Part shown: positions 1 through 15,695 of the stretch, one piece after another | How positions within the stretch are numbered: the first letter of the stretch is position 1 | Layout: each line of letters starts with the position of its first letter | The notes under the pieces: model-generated | The model's input: only the letters and a program-made list of their open reading frames with translations | What the model was told of the DNA's origin: nothing | Databases searched by the model: none | NCBI GenBank assembly: GCA_016703645.1 | Contig: JADJBR010000004.1 | Location: 124,001-188,000, forward strand | Origin: Zoogloea sp. | GTDB taxonomy: Bacteria > Pseudomonadota > Gammaproteobacteria > Burkholderiales > Rhodocyclaceae | Direction of reading: 5' to 3' | Length of the DNA: 64,000 bases | Program-made: the position numbers and the translations under genes

Positions 1-1253
1 AGAAGCTCACCCCCGATCAGGCGGTGAAGAAGGTGCTGGCCGTGGCCAGCGAGATTCCCCAGATGACCGTGCTCGGCATTGCCGGCCCCGGCGACGCTCT
101 GGCCAATCCGAAGAAGACCTTCGACACCATGCGCCAGCTCACCGAAAAGGCGCCCGACATCAAGCTGTGTCTTTCCACCAATGGTCTGGCCCTGCCGGAA
201 ATGGTCGACGAGATCTGCAAGCACAACATCGACCACGTGACCATCACCATCAACATGGTGGACCCGGAGATCGGTGCCAAGATCTACCCGTGGATCTTCT
301 GGAACCACCAGCGGGTCACCGGCGTCGAGGCTGCCCGCATCCTGCACGAACAGCAGATGAAGGGCCTGGAGATGCTCACCGCCCGCGGCGTGCTCACCAA
401 GATCAACTCGGTGCTGATCCCCGGCATCAACGATGAGCACCTGATCGAGGTGAATCGCGAGGTCAAGAAGCGCGGTGCCTTCCTGCACAACATCATGCCG
501 CTGATCAGCGAGGCCGAGCACGGCACCCACTTCGGCCTCACCGGCCAGCGTGGCCCCACCGCCCAGGAACTGAAGGCCGTGCAGGATGCCTGCATGGGCG
601 GCGCCAACCTGATGCGTCACTGCCGCCAGTGCCGCGCCGACGCGGTCGGCCTGCTCGGCGAAGACCGTAGCGAAGAATTCACCCTCGACAAGATCGAGGA
701 GATGGACATCGTCTATGACATCGATAAGCGTCGCGCCTACCAGGAGAAGGTCGAGGCCGAGCGCCAGGCCCAGCACCAGGCCAAGGTGGATGCCCTGGCC
801 GATGCCCTGGACGCCAGCCTGATCGCCGGCCAGGAAGACCTGAAGGTGCTGGTGGCCGTGGCCACCGAAGGCCAGGGCCGGGTGAACCAGCACTTCGGCC
901 ACGCCACCGAGTTCCAGATCTTCGAAGTCAGCCGCAAGGAAGCCCTGTTTGTCGGCCACCGCCGCGTGGATCTGTACTGCCAGGGTGGCTATGGCGAGGA
1001 CGAGCAACTGCCCTCCATCGTCAATGCCATCAACGACTGCCACGCCGTGCTGGTCTCCAAGATCGGCGCCTGCCCCCGTGATGAACTGAAGGCAGCCGGC
1101 ATCGAGCCGGTCGAGGAGTACGCCCACGAGTTCATCGAGAAGGCTGCGCTGAACTGGTTTGCCGACTACTGCACTCGCGTGGCCAGCGGCGCCATCGTCC
1201 ATCAGGAGCGCGGTGATGCCCGCATCCGCCAGGGCGCCGTGATGGCGGCCTGA
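1..1253 (+). CDS. nifB: Nitrogenase FeMo-cofactor biosynthesis protein NifB (5' truncated)
   Basis: NifB is the radical-SAM enzyme that builds NifB-co, the Fe-S-carbide precursor of the FeMo cofactor. The reading frame is open from the first bases of the window, so the N-terminus with the radical-SAM CxxxCxxC motif lies upstream. About 417 residues are visible. The rest of the radical-SAM barrel is present (GIAGPGD, then [15 protein letters not shown]), followed by the NifB signature [15 protein letters not shown], and a C-terminal NifX-like cofactor-binding domain from about visible residue 280 ([16 protein letters not shown]). It heads a plus-strand run of nif accessory genes. Its promoter is outside the window. 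Confidence 0.97.
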
Positions 1254-1890: not shown

Positions 1891-2454
1891 ATGTCGACCA
1901 GCGGATCGCCCGGTGCCACCCCCGGCTTCGAGGACGCCGTCCTCGGGGCCGGGCTGACGCCAGCCGTCGAGGCGCTGATCGACAAGGCCGGACGTGCCGG
2001 CATCGGCGACGAGGGGGCGCTGGAAATGCTGCTGCGTGCTCGCGCACTCGCACCCACCCACCCCGCGCCGCTGATTGCCCATTACCGTTTTCATTTCTAT
2101 GCCAATCGCCTGCCCGAAGCCCGGGCCGTGGCGGTTGAGGCCATTGCCCTGGCGGCCAGCCAACTTGGCTTGCCCGCCGAATGGCGCCAGGTGCAGCCCC
2201 AACTCCAGTGGGGCGCCAAGCGCCTGGATGAACTGCGCGCCCACGCCGTGGCCCCGCGCTTTTACTTGTTCGCCCTGAAAGGCTACGCCTACCTCAGTCT
2301 GCGCCTCGGCGAGGCAGAGGAAGGCGCGGCTGTGCTGGCCCTGCTCGAGCAACTCGATCCGACCGACAGCCTGGGTCATCGGGTGCTTGGCGCCGTGCTG
2401 GCCCGTGCCGGGCGTGACGTGGACTACGACGAACCCGTGGAGACCGCGCCATGA
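1891..2454 (+). CDS. TPR-like protein of the nif cluster
   Basis: 187-residue soluble, alanine-rich helical protein. Helical hairpins resembling tetratricopeptide units are visible (GALEMLLRARALAPTHPAPL; LFALKGYAYLSLRLGEAEEG). No signal peptide or metal motif is evident. Its last codons overlap the start of the next gene (ATGA), so the two are translationally coupled. Function unknown; a scaffold or adaptor role in nitrogenase assembly would fit the neighbours but is a guess. Confidence 0.75.
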   Translation: MSTSGSPGATPGFEDAVLGAGLTPAVEALIDKAGRAGIGDEGALEMLLRARALAPTHPAPLIAHYRFHFYANRLPEARAVAVEAIALAASQLGLPAEWRQVQPQLQWGAKRLDELRAHAVAPRFYLFALKGYAYLSLRLGEAEEGAAVLALLEQLDPTDSLGHRVLGAVLARAGRDVDYDEPVETAP

Positions 2455-3251
2455 ACACGGCAACCCGGGAGCCCGCAACGACTTGGGTGCCCAACGAGCC
2501 CCCCAGCGTTGACTGGCTTGGGCGCAGCCTGGAGTGCGGTAGCTGTGTCAATCAGGGCTTGCTGACCGAGGGCAAGTGCCAGTTGGCCTTCTCCTGCGTC
2601 TTTGATCGCTACGCCAAGCGCATCGACCGTTTCTTCCGCTGGAATCCGGGGCTGGCCAACGACTACCTCGAACACCCGTACTTCGAGGTGCGCGCAGTGG
2701 CATCGCGGTCGGCCGACGTGTTCCGCCTGGTCGGGTTGATGCATGACCCGGATGAAACCGTGCGTCTGCATGTTGCCTTGCGCTTGCCCCAGCGCCTGCT
2801 GGCGGAGTTGCGCAACGATCCCGACCGTGAGGTGCGCATTCGGGTAGCCCAGCGTCTCGATGCCAGCATGCTGGTGGAGATGGCGGGCGATCCGGATTAC
2901 TTCGTTCGCAAGCTGGTGGCCCAGCGTCTGCCCTTGCCGCTGCTGCCGCGCATGGCGACCGATCCCGACCAGGAGGTGCGTCTGGCGGTGGCCTCGCGCC
3001 TGCAGGTGCCTGCGCTGCTGGCGCTCCGCAACGACCGCGAGGTCGCCGTGCGGCGGGTCGTGGTCGATCGCCTGCCGATCGGCCTGCTGGCCGACATGGC
3101 TGACGACCCGGCCTGGGAGGTACGGTGGGAAGTGGCCCAGCGTGCCGATCCATCCCTGGCCCGGCGTCTTCTCCACGATGACGAAGCCGAGGTCTGCGAG
3201 GCAGCCCGGCTCCGTCTGACCACCCTTGATTCGGAGGCCCGCCATGGGTGA
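2451..3251 (+). CDS. 4Fe-4S-binding leucine-rich-repeat-variant (LRV) protein
   Basis: 266 residues. The N-terminal region has a four-cysteine motif with spacing C-x2-C-x10-C-x5-C (ECGSC, then GKC, then FSC, about residues 29-48), as in the Fe-S cluster of the Azotobacter LRV protein. After it come about eight 24-residue LRV units with recurring DPD/DREVR and VAQRL cores (for example DPDREVRIRVAQRL), forming a right-handed solenoid. Such proteins are encoded in nif operons of several diazotrophs but have no settled biochemical role. The start overlaps the upstream stop by 4 bp and the end overlaps nifZ by 8 bp. Confidence 0.88.
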   Translation: MNTATREPATTWVPNEPPSVDWLGRSLECGSCVNQGLLTEGKCQLAFSCVFDRYAKRIDRFFRWNPGLANDYLEHPYFEVRAVASRSADVFRLVGLMHDPDETVRLHVALRLPQRLLAELRNDPDREVRIRVAQRLDASMLVEMAGDPDYFVRKLVAQRLPLPLLPRMATDPDQEVRLAVASRLQVPALLALRNDREVAVRRVVVDRLPIGLLADMADDPAWEVRWEVAQRADPSLARRLLHDDEAEVCEAARLRLTTLDSEARHG

Positions 3252-3585
3252 CATCTCCCGCGACAGTGACGTCATCGAGCTCGAAGGCCCACCCCAGTTC
3301 GACTTTGGCGAACGGGTGGTGAGCCGCTACAAGGTGCGCAATGACGGCACCTACCCCGGCAAGGATGTGGGTGAAGTGCTGGTGAACAAGGGCGACGTGG
3401 GTTACGTCACCTCGGTGGGCACCTTTCTGCAGCAGTTCTACATCTACGCCGTCGAGTTTGTTTCCACCGGCCACAAGGTCGGCATGCGCGCCCGCGAAAT
3501 CGTGTCCCTCGACAAGTTGCCGCCCCATGTGGCCGAAGCCCTCGGGGGCGACAAGGTGGCGCAGCTCGCCCATATCAAGGAGTAA
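3244..3585 (+). CDS. nifZ: Nitrogen fixation protein NifZ
   Basis: 113 residues, matching NifZ: FDFGERVVSRYKVRNDGTYPG, then GDVGYVTSVGTFLQQFYIYAVEF. NifZ is needed for maturation of the P-cluster in the second half of the MoFe protein. The ATG at 3244 overlaps the LRV gene by 8 bp; a start 18 bp upstream is possible but adds residues not found in NifZ. Another NifZ-like gene follows directly. Confidence 0.93.
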   Translation: MGDISRDSDVIELEGPPQFDFGERVVSRYKVRNDGTYPGKDVGEVLVNKGDVGYVTSVGTFLQQFYIYAVEFVSTGHKVGMRAREIVSLDKLPPHVAEALGGDKVAQLAHIKE

Positions 3586-3589
3586 GGCC

Positions 3590-3844
3590 ATGCTTGAACC
3601 GCGCGAACCGAAATACCAGTGGGGCCAGCAGGTCACCGCCGCCACCGATCTGTTCAACGACGGCAGCCATCCCGAGGTGCCGGAGAACGAACTCATCGTG
3701 GCCGCCGGGACGGCGGGCGAAGTGGTGCAGATCGGCCACCACGAAGAGGCCAACGTCCCGGTGTACATCGTCGAGTTCGGTGCCTCCGAAGGCCGCGGCG
3801 GGCGGGTGGTGGGCTGCCTTGAAGAGGAGCTGGCGGCGACCTGA
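3590..3844 (+). CDS. Second, short NifZ-domain protein
   Basis: 84-residue protein with the same core as NifZ: YQWGQQVTAATDLFNDGSHP, then GTAGEVVQIG and VYIVEF. It begins 4 bp after nifZ and probably arose by tandem duplication with strong divergence. It keeps the small beta-barrel fold but lacks the longer C-terminus. Whether it acts with or in place of the first NifZ cannot be read from the sequence. Confidence 0.85.
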   Translation: MLEPREPKYQWGQQVTAATDLFNDGSHPEVPENELIVAAGTAGEVVQIGHHEEANVPVYIVEFGASEGRGGRVVGCLEEELAAT

Positions 3845-4870: not shown

Positions 4871-6010
4871 ATGATCTACCTGGACAACAACGCCACCACC
4901 CGCCCTCTGCCTGAAGTCGTGGCTGCCATGCACGAGGCCCTGACCCAGAGCTGGGCCAACCCCTCGTCGAAGCATGTGGCTGGCGAGCAGGCCCGCGGCA
5001 AGGTGACCGAGGCCCGCGCTGCGGTTGCCCGGCTGCTGGGTGCCCAGCCGGCCGAGCTGGTGTTCACCGCCAGCGCCACCGAGGCCAATGCCATGGCCCT
5101 GCACGCGGCCCTGGCGGTGCCGGGCGCGCCGCGCCGGGTGGTGCTGTCGGCGGTGGAACACTCCGGTCTCGTGCATGTGGCCACGGTGCTGGCCGGGCAG
5201 GGCGTGGAGATCCTGCGGCTGCCGGTGGATGCGCATGGCGTCGTGCGCTGTGAAACCCTGCCGGCCCTGCTTGAAGGCGGCGCGGCCCTGGTGTCGGTGA
5301 TGGCGGCCAACAACGAGACCGGCGTGATTCAGCCGGTGGCCGAGGTGCTGCGGCTGGCAAGCGCCGCGGGCGTTCCGGTGCATGTGGATGCCACCCAGGC
5401 GGCCGGGCGCGTGCCGGTGGATTTTGCAGGCCTGGGCGCACGCTTCCTCACGGCTTCGGCCCACAAGCTGCATGGCCCCAAGGGGGTGGGTGTGCTGGTG
5501 GTGAAGAAGGGCGCGCCCTTTGAGTCCCTGTTGCCCGGCTACCAGGAACGCAAGCGCCGTGGCGGTACCGAAAACGTGCCGGGCATCGTGGGTTTTGGGG
5601 TTGCCGCCCGCCATGCCGAGACGGCCTTTGCCGAGGCTTCCCGTATTGCAGCCCTGCGCGACGCCCTCGAGGCGGGTCTGGGCGAAGCCCTGCCGGGGGT
5701 TCGTGTTTTTGGTGCCGGTGCGCCGCGCCTGCCGAACACTGCCTGCATGGCCTTCGGGCTGCTGGATGCGGACGTGGTGCTGCAGCGTCTGGCGCGCGCC
5801 GGCATCTGCGTGTCGAGTGGTTCGGCGTGCAGCTCGGGGGGCACCGAGCCTTCGCCGGTACTGCTGGCCATGGGCACGGAGGTGGCGGCCGCGCGCGCGG
5901 CAGTGCGCTTCTCCCTGTCTGCCGAGACCACTCCGGCCGAGATCGCCTGCGTCATCGAAACCCTGCAGGCCGCCCTGACACCGCTGCTGGCCGAAGCCTT
6001 TACCGCATGA
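4871..6010 (+). CDS. nifS: Cysteine desulfurase NifS
   Basis: 379-residue class V PLP enzyme that removes sulfur from cysteine for nitrogenase Fe-S clusters. The N-terminus IYLDNNATTRPLPEVV is typical. The PLP lysine is in SAHKLHGPKGVG and the catalytic cysteine is in SSGSACSSGGTEPS. The start at 4871 gives the normal NifS N-terminus; an upstream extension runs through repeat sequence and is rejected. No nifU lies beside it in this window. It heads a second plus-strand run of nif accessory genes. Confidence 0.95.
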   Translation: MIYLDNNATTRPLPEVVAAMHEALTQSWANPSSKHVAGEQARGKVTEARAAVARLLGAQPAELVFTASATEANAMALHAALAVPGAPRRVVLSAVEHSGLVHVATVLAGQGVEILRLPVDAHGVVRCETLPALLEGGAALVSVMAANNETGVIQPVAEVLRLASAAGVPVHVDATQAAGRVPVDFAGLGARFLTASAHKLHGPKGVGVLVVKKGAPFESLLPGYQERKRRGGTENVPGIVGFGVAARHAETAFAEASRIAALRDALEAGLGEALPGVRVFGAGAPRLPNTACMAFGLLDADVVLQRLARAGICVSSGSACSSGGTEPSPVLLAMGTEVAAARAAVRFSLSAETTPAEIACVIETLQAALTPLLAEAFTA

Positions 6011-6052: not shown

Positions 6053-6262
6053 ATGAAAGTCATGCTGCGCAACACCCCCCAGGGCCTGTCGGCCTACGTG
6101 CCCAAGAAAGACCTGGAAGAGCCCGTCGTGGCCCAGGAGAACGCCGGACTGTGGGGCGGCACCATCACCCTGGCCAATGGCTGGATCCTGGCCCTGCCTG
6201 AAATGGCTGCCGAAACCCGCCTGCCCATCACGGTCGAGGCACGCAAGGTCGGGGGTGAATGA
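6053..6262 (+). CDS. nifT: Nitrogen fixation protein NifT/FixU
   Basis: 69 residues beginning MKVMLRNTPQGLSAYVPKKD, the NifT/FixU signature, with the typical WGGTITLANGW centre. NifT is conserved in nif operons but is dispensable in tested organisms and its role is not settled. Its stop overlaps the next start (ATGA). Confidence 0.92.
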   Translation: MKVMLRNTPQGLSAYVPKKDLEEPVVAQENAGLWGGTITLANGWILALPEMAAETRLPITVEARKVGGE

Positions 6263-6525
6263 TGGCCCTCACCACCGATGACCTTAACGCGCTGGTGAGT
6301 TTGGGCAATTCGGCGCCCGACATCGCCACCCTCGCGGCCGAAGCCCGCGCCCGTTGGAGCGGACTGCGCGTCACCGTGGTGGATGCCCTCGACGTGCGGG
6401 GGGAAACCCCGGCCTTTGAGACGGCCACCGCCAATGTCTTCCTCATGGGGTGCGACGGCCATTGCTGGTCGATGACCGCCGATCCCGCCGCTGCTGCCGG
6501 TCTTGTGCTGGCGGCCAGGAGCTGA
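6259..6525 (+). CDS. Small nif-associated protein of unknown function (possibly DUF6129)
   Basis: 88 residues, soluble, acidic, with two adjacent ATG codons (6259 and 6262) as possible starts. A GGGGGTGA stretch just upstream can serve as ribosome-binding site. It resembles small proteins annotated as DUF6129 next to nifT in other betaproteobacterial nif clusters, but that naming is from memory and uncertain. Two cysteines occur in MGCDGHCWSM, a possible ligand pair. Coupling with nifT points to a nitrogenase-related role. Confidence 0.65.
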   Translation: MMALTTDDLNALVSLGNSAPDIATLAAEARARWSGLRVTVVDALDVRGETPAFETATANVFLMGCDGHCWSMTADPAAAAGLVLAARS

Positions 6526-6527
6526 TC

Positions 6528-7724
6528 ATGGATGCCCCCGTCAACCCTCCGGACGTGGATCACGACGAGGACTGGATCCTGCTGACCGACCCCGACGTCA
6601 GCGGCCGGGAATTGGAGCGGGTGATCCGGGCCCTGCGCAGCTCGCGCCTCTCTGCGGGGCCGCTGGTCGAGGACTTCGAGGCCGAGTTCGCCGCCCATCA
6701 CGGCCGTGCCTATGGCGTTGCCACCGCCAGCGGCACCATCGGCATGTGGCTGGCCCTGCGTGCTCTGGGTATCGGGCCGGGGGATGAAGTGGTGGCCTGC
6801 AGCTATGGCTGGCACCAGACCGCCCACGCCATCCTGCTTGCCGGCGCCACCCCCAATTTTGCCGAGATCGACTATTGGTCCGGGTGCATTTCGCCGTCTG
6901 CCGCAGCCGACCGCATCGGGCCAAAGACCAAGGCCATCATCGGCAACAACTGCAACGGCCACCCGGCGGCCTGGAAAGCCCTGCGCCAACTGGCCGAGTC
7001 CCGGGGCGTGGCCCTGCTGGAGGACTCCACCGAGGCCATCGGGTCGCGCTACCTGGGCAAACCGGTGGGCAGCTTCGGCGATCTGTCGGTGTTCGACTTC
7101 TCCCAGCCTGGCGCCCTGTGCTGCGGCGAGGGGGGCATGGTGCTCACCGATGATCCTCATCTGGCCACGGAGCTGCGTTACCTGCGTGCCCATCGCCTGT
7201 CCGATCGCACTTCGGTGTCCATCGGCAGTCGTGTGCCCCTGCAGGGCGGCATGAGCGACCTCACTGCTGCCCTGGGGCTGGCCCAGCTTGAGCGCATCGA
7301 CGAGATTCTGGCTCGCCGCAAGCAGGTGGAGGCCTTTTACCGGGACGAGATGCAAAGCTTCGAGGGCATCAAGCCCCCCTACCTGGGGCCGGACGTGGAT
7401 GAGGTGCACTGGATGCTCTACGTGGTGCACCTGGGGGCGCGCTTCAGTGCCAGCTCCCGCGCCCAGATCGTGGATGACCTGGAGGCCGATCTCATCGAAG
7501 CCGCACCCTTCAGTGCCCTGATGCACCAGCAATTTGCCTACCAGGCCCTGGGCGAAGCCTACAACTGCAAGCGCGGCTGCCTGAAGAACACCGAACGCAT
7601 CGGCGACCGTTCCCTGGCGCTGCCCTTCTACGGGCAGTTGGGCGCCGACGAGGTCAAGTTCCTGGTCAAGACACTCAAGGACGCCTGTACCAATGTGGGT
7701 GCCGGCGCCGCGATCTACCTGTAA
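6528..7724 (+). CDS. DegT/DnrJ/EryC1/StrS-fold protein lacking the PLP lysine
   Basis: 398 residues with the fold-type I sugar-aminotransferase layout: VATASGTIGMWLALRALGIGPGDEV, the PLP-ring aspartate in LLEDSTEAIGSRYLG, and VGSFGDLSVFDF leading to the CGEGG loop. In active members the lysine that binds PLP sits six residues before GEGG (for example FHAIKNITCAEGG); here the run is SQPGALCCGEGG and the aligned residue, Gly195 (codon 7110-7112), is not lysine. So it may be a non-transaminating PLP enzyme or a non-catalytic relative. The start at 6528 has AGGAG before it. Nif-cluster membership suggests a role linked to nitrogen fixation, unknown. Confidence 0.85.
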   Translation: MDAPVNPPDVDHDEDWILLTDPDVSGRELERVIRALRSSRLSAGPLVEDFEAEFAAHHGRAYGVATASGTIGMWLALRALGIGPGDEVVACSYGWHQTAHAILLAGATPNFAEIDYWSGCISPSAAADRIGPKTKAIIGNNCNGHPAAWKALRQLAESRGVALLEDSTEAIGSRYLGKPVGSFGDLSVFDFSQPGALCCGEGGMVLTDDPHLATELRYLRAHRLSDRTSVSIGSRVPLQGGMSDLTAALGLAQLERIDEILARRKQVEAFYRDEMQSFEGIKPPYLGPDVDEVHWMLYVVHLGARFSASSRAQIVDDLEADLIEAAPFSALMHQQFAYQALGEAYNCKRGCLKNTERIGDRSLALPFYGQLGADEVKFLVKTLKDACTNVGAGAAIYL

Positions 7725-7741: not shown

Positions 7742-8620
7742 ATGACAACCACTCTTGCCACTCCCGATATCGCTCCTTCCGCCATCCTGCCCGACGGTCT
7801 TCCCGTCAGCCTGGTCGAGGCCCTGGCCGCGGGTCGCGTGGTGCCCTATCTGGGCCCTCGCGTGCTCGCCCTGGCCCCCGACTATGCGGTGCCGGCCACC
7901 CCCGAAGCGTTGGTGACCCAGCTCACCGCCAAGAGCTCCGTTCCCCACAAGATCCGCAACCGGCTTACCCAGTCGGCCCAGTACATCGAGAACTTCAAGC
8001 ACCGCAAGACGCTGGTGGGGCTGATGAACGAGGCCTTTGCTGCGCCACCCAAGCCGGCACCCCTGCATGAAAGCCTCGCCGGCTTCGGCTTTCCGCTGAT
8101 CGTCGATGCCTGGTACGACGATGCCATGGCCACGGCCCTGGCCGCCCATGCTGCCACCGGTAGTTGGGGGCAGGTCCAGGGGCTGGCCCAATCCGAGCAT
8201 TTCGGTACCTGGACGGGGTGGTATGACGCGGCGGGCAACGCCGTTCCCGACAGCAACCCGGACTGGAAGACCATCCTCTACAAGCCCATCGGTGCCCATG
8301 GCCCGGCGGGCAACTACCTGGTGTCGGATACCGATTACGTGGAAGTGCTGACCGAGATCGACATTCAGACGCCGATTCCGGTGGAGGTCCAGCGCCTGCG
8401 CACGGGCAGCAACTTCCTGTTCGTGGGTTGCCGCTTCAATGATCAGCTTCCCCGCGCCTTTGCCCGCCAGATCATGAAGCGTTCGTCGGACCGCCATTGG
8501 GCGGTGCTGCCCGACGAACCGACCCGCATGGAAGCGCGCTTCCTCGCCGAGCAGGGGATCGAGCGCATTCCCCTGTCCCTGGACGTATTCGTTCCCGCCC
8601 TTCTGGCCCGTCTGGGCTGA
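7742..8620 (+). CDS. SIR2-like domain protein of the nif cluster
   Basis: 292 residues with the outline of a SIR2_2-type Rossmann domain: VVPYLGPRVL near residue 34 (nucleotide loop), PLIVDAWYDD, then YKPIGAHGPAGNYLVSDTDY, and the FLFVGCRFNDQL strand. The place where active SIR2-like proteins carry the catalytic histidine (KLHG or YHLFG) reads YKPIG, so NAD hydrolysis is uncertain. No membrane segments. A GAGG site precedes the ATG. It is transcribed with the DegT-fold gene and a 2Fe-2S ferredoxin. An NAD- or ADP-ribose-binding role near the DraT/DraG system is an inference only. Confidence 0.75.
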   Translation: MTTTLATPDIAPSAILPDGLPVSLVEALAAGRVVPYLGPRVLALAPDYAVPATPEALVTQLTAKSSVPHKIRNRLTQSAQYIENFKHRKTLVGLMNEAFAAPPKPAPLHESLAGFGFPLIVDAWYDDAMATALAAHAATGSWGQVQGLAQSEHFGTWTGWYDAAGNAVPDSNPDWKTILYKPIGAHGPAGNYLVSDTDYVEVLTEIDIQTPIPVEVQRLRTGSNFLFVGCRFNDQLPRAFARQIMKRSSDRHWAVLPDEPTRMEARFLAEQGIERIPLSLDVFVPALLARLG

Positions 8621-8662: not shown

Positions 8663-8959
8663 ATGGCTCTACTTACCATCCAGCCCTCGGGCAAGGCCGT
8701 TGAGGTCGCCGCCGGCTCCACGCTTCTCAGTGCCATCCTCGCGTCGGGAGAAAGCATCCGCCACAAGTGTGAGGGCAAGGCCGAATGTGGGAGCTGCCAC
8801 ATCTTCATCCAGGAGGGCCGCAAGACCCTTCCGCGCATCCAGAAGCTCGAGAACGAAAAGCTCGATACCCTGGTGGGCGTCAGCAGCAAGTCGCGTCTGG
8901 CTTGCCAGACCCTGATGGGCGAAGAGCCCGTCACCATTGAGTTGCTCAGCTTCGTCTGA
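8663..8959 (+). CDS. 2Fe-2S ferredoxin of the nif accessory operon
   Basis: 98 residues. Plant/adrenodoxin-type cluster motif C-x5-C-x2-C (KCEGKAECGSC) with the fourth cysteine in RLACQT. The start at 8663 follows AGAAGGA. Last gene of the nifS run; it is followed by a 120-bp repeat and a strong hairpin. It may donate electrons to nif assembly enzymes; the partner is not known. Confidence 0.9.
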   Translation: MALLTIQPSGKAVEVAAGSTLLSAILASGESIRHKCEGKAECGSCHIFIQEGRKTLPRIQKLENEKLDTLVGVSSKSRLACQTLMGEEPVTIELLSFV

Positions 8960-14246: not shown

Positions 14247-15695
14247 ATGAGCCTGACCGTTGAAGAAAACAAGGCACTTATCGAAGAAGTGCTGAAGGCC
14301 TACCCGGAAAAGACCGCCAAGAAGCGTGCCAAGCACCTGGGCACTTTCGAGGATGGCAAGCCGGATTGCGGCGTGAAGTCCAACATCAAGTCCCTGCCGG
14401 GCGTGATGACGATCCGTGGCTGTGCCTACGCCGGTTCCAAGGGCGTGGTGTGGGGCCCGATCAAGGACATGATCCACATTTCCCACGGCCCGGTGGGCTG
14501 CGGCCAGTATTCCTGGGCCTCGCGCCGGAACTACTACATCGGTGAAACCGGCATCGACACCTTCGGCACGATGCAATTCACGTCCGACTTCCAGGAGAAG
14601 GACATCGTCTTCGGCGGCGACAAGAAGCTGGAGAAGATCATCGACGAGATCGAAGTCCTGTTCCCGCTGAACAAGGGCATCACCGTCCAGTCCGAGTGCC
14701 CGATCGGCCTGATCGGCGACGACATCGAGGCCGTTTCGAAAAAGAAGGCCAAGGAATACGAAGGCAAGACCATCGTTCCCGTGCGTTGCGAGGGCTTCCG
14801 CGGCGTCAGCCAGTCCCTCGGCCACCACATCGCCAACGATGCGGTGCGTGACTGGGTTTTCGACAAGGTGGATCCGAACAAGAACGTGTTCGAGTCCAGC
14901 CCCTACGACGTGGCCATCATCGGTGACTACAACATCGGTGGCGATGCCTGGTCCAGCCGCATCCTCCTCGAGGAGATGGGTCTGCGCGTCATCGCCCAGT
15001 GGTCCGGCGACGGCACCATCGCCGAACTGGAGAACACGCCCAAGGCCAAACTCAATGTGCTGCACTGCTACCGCTCGATGAACTACATCAGCCGCCACAT
15101 GGAAGAGAAATATGGGACCCCCTGGGTCGAGTACAACTTTTTCGGCCCGACGATGATCGAGAAGAGCCTGCGCGAGATCGCCAGCCACTTCGACGACACC
15201 ATCAAGGCCAACGCCGAGGTGGTCATCGCCAAGTACCGCAAGCTGATCGACGAGACCATTGCCAAGTACAAGCCGCGCCTGCAGGGCAAGAAGGTCATGC
15301 TCTTCGTGGGTGGTCTGCGCCCCCGTCACGTGATCGGTGCCTACGAGGATCTGGGCATGGAAGTGGTCGGCACCGGCTACGAATTCGGCCACAACGACGA
15401 CTATCAGCGCACCACCCACTACGTGAAGGACGGCACGCTGATCTACGACGACGTGACCGGCTACGAGTTCGAGAAGTTTGTCGAGAAGGTTCAGCCCGAC
15501 CTGGTCGGCTCCGGCATCAAGGAAAAGTACGTCTTCCAGAAGATGGGCGTGCCCTTCCGCCAGATGCATAGCTGGGACTACTCCGGCCCGTACCACGGCT
15601 ACGACGGTTTCGCGATCTTCGCCCGTGACATGGACATGGCGATCAACTCGCCGGTCTGGAGCCTGACCAAGGCTCCGTGGAAGAAGGCTGCCTAA
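14247..15695 (+). CDS. nifD: Nitrogenase molybdenum-iron protein alpha chain NifD
   Basis: 482 residues. Alpha subunit of dinitrogenase, binding FeMo-co and half of the P-cluster. P-cluster cysteines are seen in [18 protein letters not shown] and [11 protein letters not shown]. FeMo-co ligands are the cysteine in [11 protein letters not shown] and the histidine in QMHSWDYSG. An ACAGGAG ribosome-binding site precedes the ATG. The molybdenum type is indicated by length and the absence of vnf/anf delta-subunit genes. Confidence 0.99.

Follow-up and report, generated by a model that had tools for sequence, protein, structure and literature searches.

The DegT-fold gene and its neighbours in the nif operon

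The window, by which we mean the whole analysed stretch of 64,000 nucleotides of Zoogloea sp. DNA, contains a nif operon with the gene order nifB, fdxN, iscA-like, TPR-like, LRV-FeS4, nifZ, nifZ, DUF3024, nifS-like, nifT, DUF6129-like, DegT, SIR2-like and ferredoxin, with nifHDK further on. Some of these names were taken from annotated relatives. All features described here lie on the forward strand. The nifB gene (24..1253), identified from the open reading frame list, annotated relatives and tblastn, is probably cut by the window start. Pfam searches detected an LRV Fe4S4 repeat protein (2451..3251), a NifZ-domain protein (3244..3585) and a 2Fe-2S ferredoxin (8663..8959), while a second NifZ-domain protein (3590..3844) was recognised by a sequence and domain match. 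The NifS-like cysteine desulfurase (4871..6010; open reading frame and Pfam search) has its own lysine and cysteine loops visible in the translation and precedes nifT (6053..6262; PF06988). The nifD gene (14247..15695) was assigned from its open reading frame and a TIGR01282 match at contig positions 138277-139680.

The gene at the centre of this analysis (6528..7724) is an open, full-length reading frame of 398 residues, uninterrupted by a stop. The identical protein is encoded on a public Zoogloea MAG contig (L015). Its product scored 286.4 bits against Pfam family PF01041 (DegT_DnrJ_EryC1; cut-off 19.8) and has the fold-type I aminotransferase fold. Directly upstream, 2 bases before its start, lies a gene for an 88-aa DUF6129-like protein (6259..6525). 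This name was taken from the annotation of one relative and from two relatives scoring below the Pfam cut-off, and the window copy itself gave no Pfam match. The literature searched yielded nothing on DUF6129.

Relatives of the 6528..7724 protein were gathered by similarity alone and then aligned with 16 other DegT proteins, which were chosen from search matches and not randomly, as controls. The resulting clade set comprises 102 distinct intact proteins with more than 44% identity to the window protein; the lysine was no criterion for inclusion. The alignment was made without a frameshifted copy (L012) and without L005-L007, and L014 (244 aa) was dropped from the controls. The search for related loci covered the best 80 of 365 places, and more distant members come only from other similarity and genome-sample searches. 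Records of Azoarcus and Herbaspirillum (L028, L052, L054) are among the sources of the relatives. According to this comparison, the window protein is a member of a clade of nif-operon proteins with the DegT/StrS fold.

Loss of the Schiff-base lysine

Codon 195 (ggc; 7110..7112) encodes glycine at the column of the Schiff-base lysine, as seen in the translation, the relatives, the clade alignment and a profile alignment in which the lysine of wild-type GDP-perosamine synthase (3dr7, 3bn1) falls on residue 195. The placement of Gly195 proposed by the earlier note was thereby borne out. As the glycine is common to all eight Zoogloea relatives (L016-L023), it is not a sequencing error. Among the 102 clade proteins, this column holds Ser (69), Gly (18), Leu (12), Ala (2) or Gln (1) and never Lys; the 16 controls have Lys in 15 cases and His in one. 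The expectation that nif-linked homologues would always lack the lysine and form a conserved group that should not transaminate thus agrees with the alignment. With five different residues at this one position, a common chemistry is not indicated. The PMP-dependent dehydrases E1 and ColD carry His at the lysine position, and this residue was found in 0 of the 102 clade proteins.

A replacement lysine elsewhere at the active site, named in the earlier note as a finding that would speak against its claim, did not emerge from the alignment. The other conserved lysines of the clade, Lys265 (92/102), Lys282 and Lys384 (102/102 each, and in 2 of the 16 controls each), are all off the canonical column; in space, Lys282 and Lys384 might still reach the pocket.

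The rest of the cofactor site

The cofactor phosphate is held by a Ser and an Asn at this site. In an excerpt of a structural comparison of Pcryo_0638, PglE and DesI, Thr60, Asp156, Ser180, Lys185 and Asn239 are named as the only strictly conserved residues that contact the external aldimine (PMC8040287). We assigned these residues to columns 70, 166, 190, 195 and 239 of our alignment by spacing and by conservation in the 16 controls (Thr 15, Asp 16, Ser 14 with Ala 2, Lys 15 and Asn 14, respectively).

Three of these five residues are gone from the clade. Aspartate occupies the Ser column in 102/102 proteins (codon 190 of the window protein; 7095..7097), and Asn is found at its column in none of the 102, where 85 proteins, including the window protein (codon 239; 7242..7244), have Gln. 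Ser, Lys and Asn are jointly absent from all 102 proteins. The aspartate facing the ring nitrogen (Asp156 of Pcryo_0638, Asp166 here) is retained in 102/102. Thr is present at column 70 in the window protein and in 86 of the 102, with M, R, S, L, G or N in the remaining 16; nine of the 12 proteins with Leu195 combine it with Met70. The earlier statement that all landmarks other than the lysine are kept therefore does not hold: one of the motifs it relied on, FDF, is itself an alteration, as the controls read FSF, with Ser in 14 of 16, and the cofactor-site Asn, on the loop from the partner subunit, has gone as well.

The acid in place of the cofactor-site Ser should repel a phosphate. Structures of Lys-to-Ala mutants of this family have been solved with PLP or its adducts (entry titles of 4oca, 4ztc and 3nys), so that loss of the lysine alone is not decisive and the argument is carried by the losses of Ser and Asn. 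Judged from these columns, ordinary PLP or PMP binding has most likely been lost in the clade proteins. The pocket is nevertheless not variable throughout. Asp166, Glu169, Asn141, Asp190 and His333 are present in 102/102 proteins, His145 in 101 and Trp95 in 97. Asp166, Glu169, His333 and His145 also occur in 16, 9, 13 and 4 of the 16 controls, while Asp190 and Asn141 occur in none of them. The invariance of these residues indicates that the pocket is not decaying neutrally, and something may still bind there.

These features set the clade apart from the characterised sugar aminotransferases of the DegT/DnrJ/EryC1/StrS family (3dr7/3bn1, ArnB, PseC), whose cofactor-site Lys, Ser and Asn it lacks. 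It differs from them further in being encoded in nif operons instead of sugar clusters and in having an extra invariant C-terminal tail. This tail (residues 389-398; 7692..7721), delimited by the alignment and the predicted model, is nearly invariant and follows the pattern N-V/I-GAG-x-x-I-Y with an optional final Leu and few variants. Gly391, Ala392, Gly393, Ile396 and Tyr397 occur in 102/102 clade proteins, none of which extends past the tail, and a comparison of the C-terminal stretch of the 16 controls revealed nothing alike. Residues 394-398 have pLDDT values below 50 in a model that is otherwise confident (87.4). A C-terminus that is invariant yet predicted to be loose suggests a docking peptide.

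The SIR2-fold neighbour

The gene immediately downstream (7742..8620; Pfam search and motif alignment) encodes a SIR2-fold protein that lacks two residues of ThsA-type NADases, an Asn and a His. At the column of ThsA Asn112, Trp was found in 131 of 133 loci, including the window. At the column of ThsA His152, which lies in a weak second alignment segment (6.0 bits), His was found in 3 of 133 loci, and the window protein has Ile. The NADase Asn motif is present in 9 of 12 other SIR2_2 proteins used as controls, two of which are nearly alike; for the His motif, these controls gave no usable pattern. The neighbour thus departs from the SIR2-fold NADases of phage defence, such as KomC and ThsA, at both columns and, by its motifs, is a second putatively dead enzyme that has lost the Asn and nearly always the His.

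Matches to the SIR2-fold protein with E-values up to 1e-90 were found in 16 of 16 genomes with the DegT-fold clade protein versus 8 of 62 nifD-bearing genomes without it; weaker matches (up to 1e-15) occurred in a further 22 of these 62. The SIR2-fold neighbour is therefore associated with the DegT-fold protein, but not exclusively so. An exclusive partnership with the DUF6129-like protein was ruled out, as the latter was detected (E-values up to 1e-5) in 15 of 16 genomes with the DegT-fold protein but also in 27 of 62 without it.

Ancestry, selection and damaged copies

In a tree of 47 clade sequences and 16 others, inferred with the lysine column masked, the clade forms one side of a single branch with an SH-aLRT support of 100; the tree is of a quick kind, with SH-aLRT as its only support measure and long outgroup branches. 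Two changes between Lys and non-Lys are needed on this tree, which fits one for the clade and one for the His-bearing sequence. The dN/dS ratios (Nei-Gojobori) ranged from 0.027 to 0.130 between the window protein and seven Zoogloea relatives and from 0.026 to 0.204 in twelve other pairs (0.026-0.204 over all 19 pairs), and 43 positions are invariant in this set. The clade gene is thus under strong purifying selection.

Some damaged or missing copies were also observed. On a plasmid of the nodule isolate Bradyrhizobium sp. BWA-3-5 (L012, 8960-10200), the DegT frame, with Leu at the lysine column, is split by a frameshift, for which a sequencing error is possible. Between its DUF6129-like and SIR2 genes, the nif operon of another genome (G285; L159, 5948-6300) has a short open frame of some 100 codons, which begins at the usual junction and finishes with the tail; its match to DegT is confined to the last 35 residues. 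A third genome (G367; L158, 6530-6760) has kept the operon order but shows no DegT match at this place. Going by the locus numbers in an excerpt of a report on P. phymatum, the genes after nifT (Bphy_7747) encode a hypothetical protein and an IS630 transposase (PMC8305402), and the DegT gene may have been lost in this organism.

Link to nitrogen fixation

To compare the distribution of the clade with that of nifD, the DegT and nifD searches were taken to cover the same genomes on the basis of equal sample sizes and of matching labels where shown. Among 370 genomes of the class, the clade occurred in 10 of 36 with nifD versus 0 of 334 without; among 397 genomes of the phylum, in 9 of 45 versus 0 of 352. 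The two samples share at least three genomes (G000, G111, G219), and scoring was limited to the best few candidates per genome (at most 5 and 4, respectively), so that a weak clade member could be missed. Matches with E-values up to 1e-75 were obtained in 12 genomes of the class sample, ten lysine-less and two Lys-bearing (G126, G256), both of the latter without nifD. The phylum sample gave ten matched genomes, nine lysine-less and one Lys-bearing (G745) without nifD, and a sample of 101 genomes of the family (E-values up to 1e-60) gave ten, seven lysine-less and three Lys-bearing. The weakest lysine-less member in the class and phylum samples had an E-value of 2.2e-130.

At the level of individual loci, at least one of nifB, fdxN, nifZ, nifT, nifH and nifD was located beside the clade gene in 102 of 103 cases, the sole exception (L038) being a locus bounded by a contig end that lies 397 bases upstream of the gene, and nifT was present in 91 of 91 clade loci of at least 12 kb; these tallies include some duplicate places and near relatives. 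In the samples searched, the clade is thus present only together with nifD, and it is found among nif genes. As 62 of the 78 nifD-bearing genomes in the class and phylum samples do without a clade protein, it is no general requirement for nitrogenase. In a search of these 62 genomes (E-values up to 1e-35), no close relative was found among the matches listed, the best of which had an E-value of 1.6e-68.

Homologues with the normal lysine in other nif clusters, the second finding that the earlier note had named as contrary to its claim, did not emerge from the matches listed for the 62 genomes. Only one of these matches (G383; L157) lies within 12 kb of nifD when places are compared by eye; it is a normal Lys-bearing enzyme whose neighbours, also named by eye, are Gfo/Idh-like and of LPS type. 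Another genome (G480) has one DegT match about 40 kb from nifD. Several of the genomes without the clade protein are in many contigs, and linkage can therefore be missed.

A putative DegT aminotransferase of Bradyrhizobium ORS278, BRADO5411, was listed under nitrogen fixation in 2011, in a study of nod-independent bradyrhizobia (PMC3899966, Table 3). Its locus number adjoins those of ferredoxin, NifZ-domain, LRV-FeS4, TPR and SufA-like genes in the excerpt of that study, which contains nothing on the lysine of the DegT protein; we place BRADO5411 with the nif clade by gene neighbourhood only. The same excerpt describes an operon with the nearby locus numbers BRADO5414, 5416, 5418 and 5424 that also occurs in Azorhizobium, where it is upregulated in bacteroids. 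Nod-independent bradyrhizobia have retained this operon, which is absent from rhizobia that do not fix nitrogen in the free-living state (PMC3899966). Among the rows given in an excerpt on a metagenomic nif fosmid, nifB, NifZ and a class V aminotransferase appear and no DegT protein (PMC3912193). The literature searched, which left subscription journals mostly outside, yielded no statement on the missing lysine of a nif-linked DegT protein.

Proposed role

Taken from its sequence, the 6528..7724 protein is most likely a pseudoenzyme with the fold of DegT/StrS aminotransferases that is linked to nif genes and does not transaminate. The missing cofactor residues, together with strong selection in nif operons, indicate that it is probably an assembly or docking part and not an aminotransferase. 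The simplest account, which we favour with slightly better than even confidence, is that the paired pseudoenzymes form an assembly or docking module and help nitrogenase to mature by acting as scaffold or adaptor. The DegT-fold protein would lack both the ordinary binding of PLP or PMP and transaminase activity, and would take on this role as a dimer. The SIR2-fold pseudoenzyme would act together with it, and a partner would be docked via the invariant, flexible C-terminal tail. Of the two options raised by the earlier note, a new cofactor-dependent or a purely structural nif protein, the former is weakened by a PLP site that is not intact beyond the lysine, and the latter is favoured.

The main rival to a scaffold or adaptor follows from the residues of the pocket that never vary. 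Asp190, beside Asp166 and Glu169 and together with His333 and Asn141, could bind a different ligand, for instance a metal ion, the side chain of a basic residue or an organic acid needed for cofactor assembly. The protein would then be a repurposed binding protein or enzyme, which we regard as possible but clearly the less probable reading. The restriction of Asp190 and Asn141 to the clade is in line with such a repurposed pocket, while Asp166, Glu169, His333 and His145, being shared with controls, need not mean a new ligand. The variable phosphate-loop position 70 also argues against it, as does the pairing of Leu195 with Met70, which gives the impression that the site of this branch is filled by side chains. 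A non-covalently held PLP or PMP, with PMP chemistry like that of the His-type 3-dehydrases E1 and ColD, is unlikely, and we attach little weight to it. Both groups have the DegT fold without the Schiff-base lysine, the ring Asp is invariant in the clade, and the Lys-to-Ala structures indicate that the cofactor can be held without the lysine; however, no clade protein has His at that column, all have lost the Ser to Asp and the Asn, and the His-bearing DegT protein of the window genome itself (L001) retains both Ser and Asn.

In serine palmitoyltransferase, a lysine-less subunit, LCB1, pairs with LCB2. By analogy, the DegT-fold protein could be the inactive heterodimer partner of the adjacent NifS-like desulfurase, an arrangement we likewise consider improbable. 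Of the 91 loci that span 12 kb or more, 87 have a NifS-like match, and 12 of 13 relatives inspected show the lysine and cysteine loops of the NifS-like protein (the stretch of L032 does not cover the loops). On the other hand, four of the 91 loci (L082, L127, L135, L137) contain no NifS-like match, the only one of L126 is on the opposite strand and not part of the operon, and the two proteins belong to different fold-type I subfamilies. That the gene is a decaying remnant without function is already contradicted by the substitution pattern and appears extremely improbable: some copies are broken, such as the frameshifted L012 and the relic in G285, but the low dN/dS ratios, the 43 invariant positions and the 102 distinct intact sequences speak against decay.

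It may further be speculated, as a long shot, that the acidic former PLP site formed by Asp166, Glu169, Asp190, His333 and Asn141 takes up a metal ion or cofactor precursor destined for nitrogenase, which would be passed on via the GAG..IY tail and the SIR2-fold pseudoenzyme. If true, this would be a new assembly step that relies on two pseudoenzymes and is confined to some diazotrophs.

The clade represents a PLP fold that has been stripped of most of its cofactor site and is still under strong selection. Nitrogenase maturation retains accessory genes without a known role, which is relevant to moving nitrogen fixation into new hosts, and two adjoining putative pseudoenzymes tied to nif operons offer a directly testable lead.
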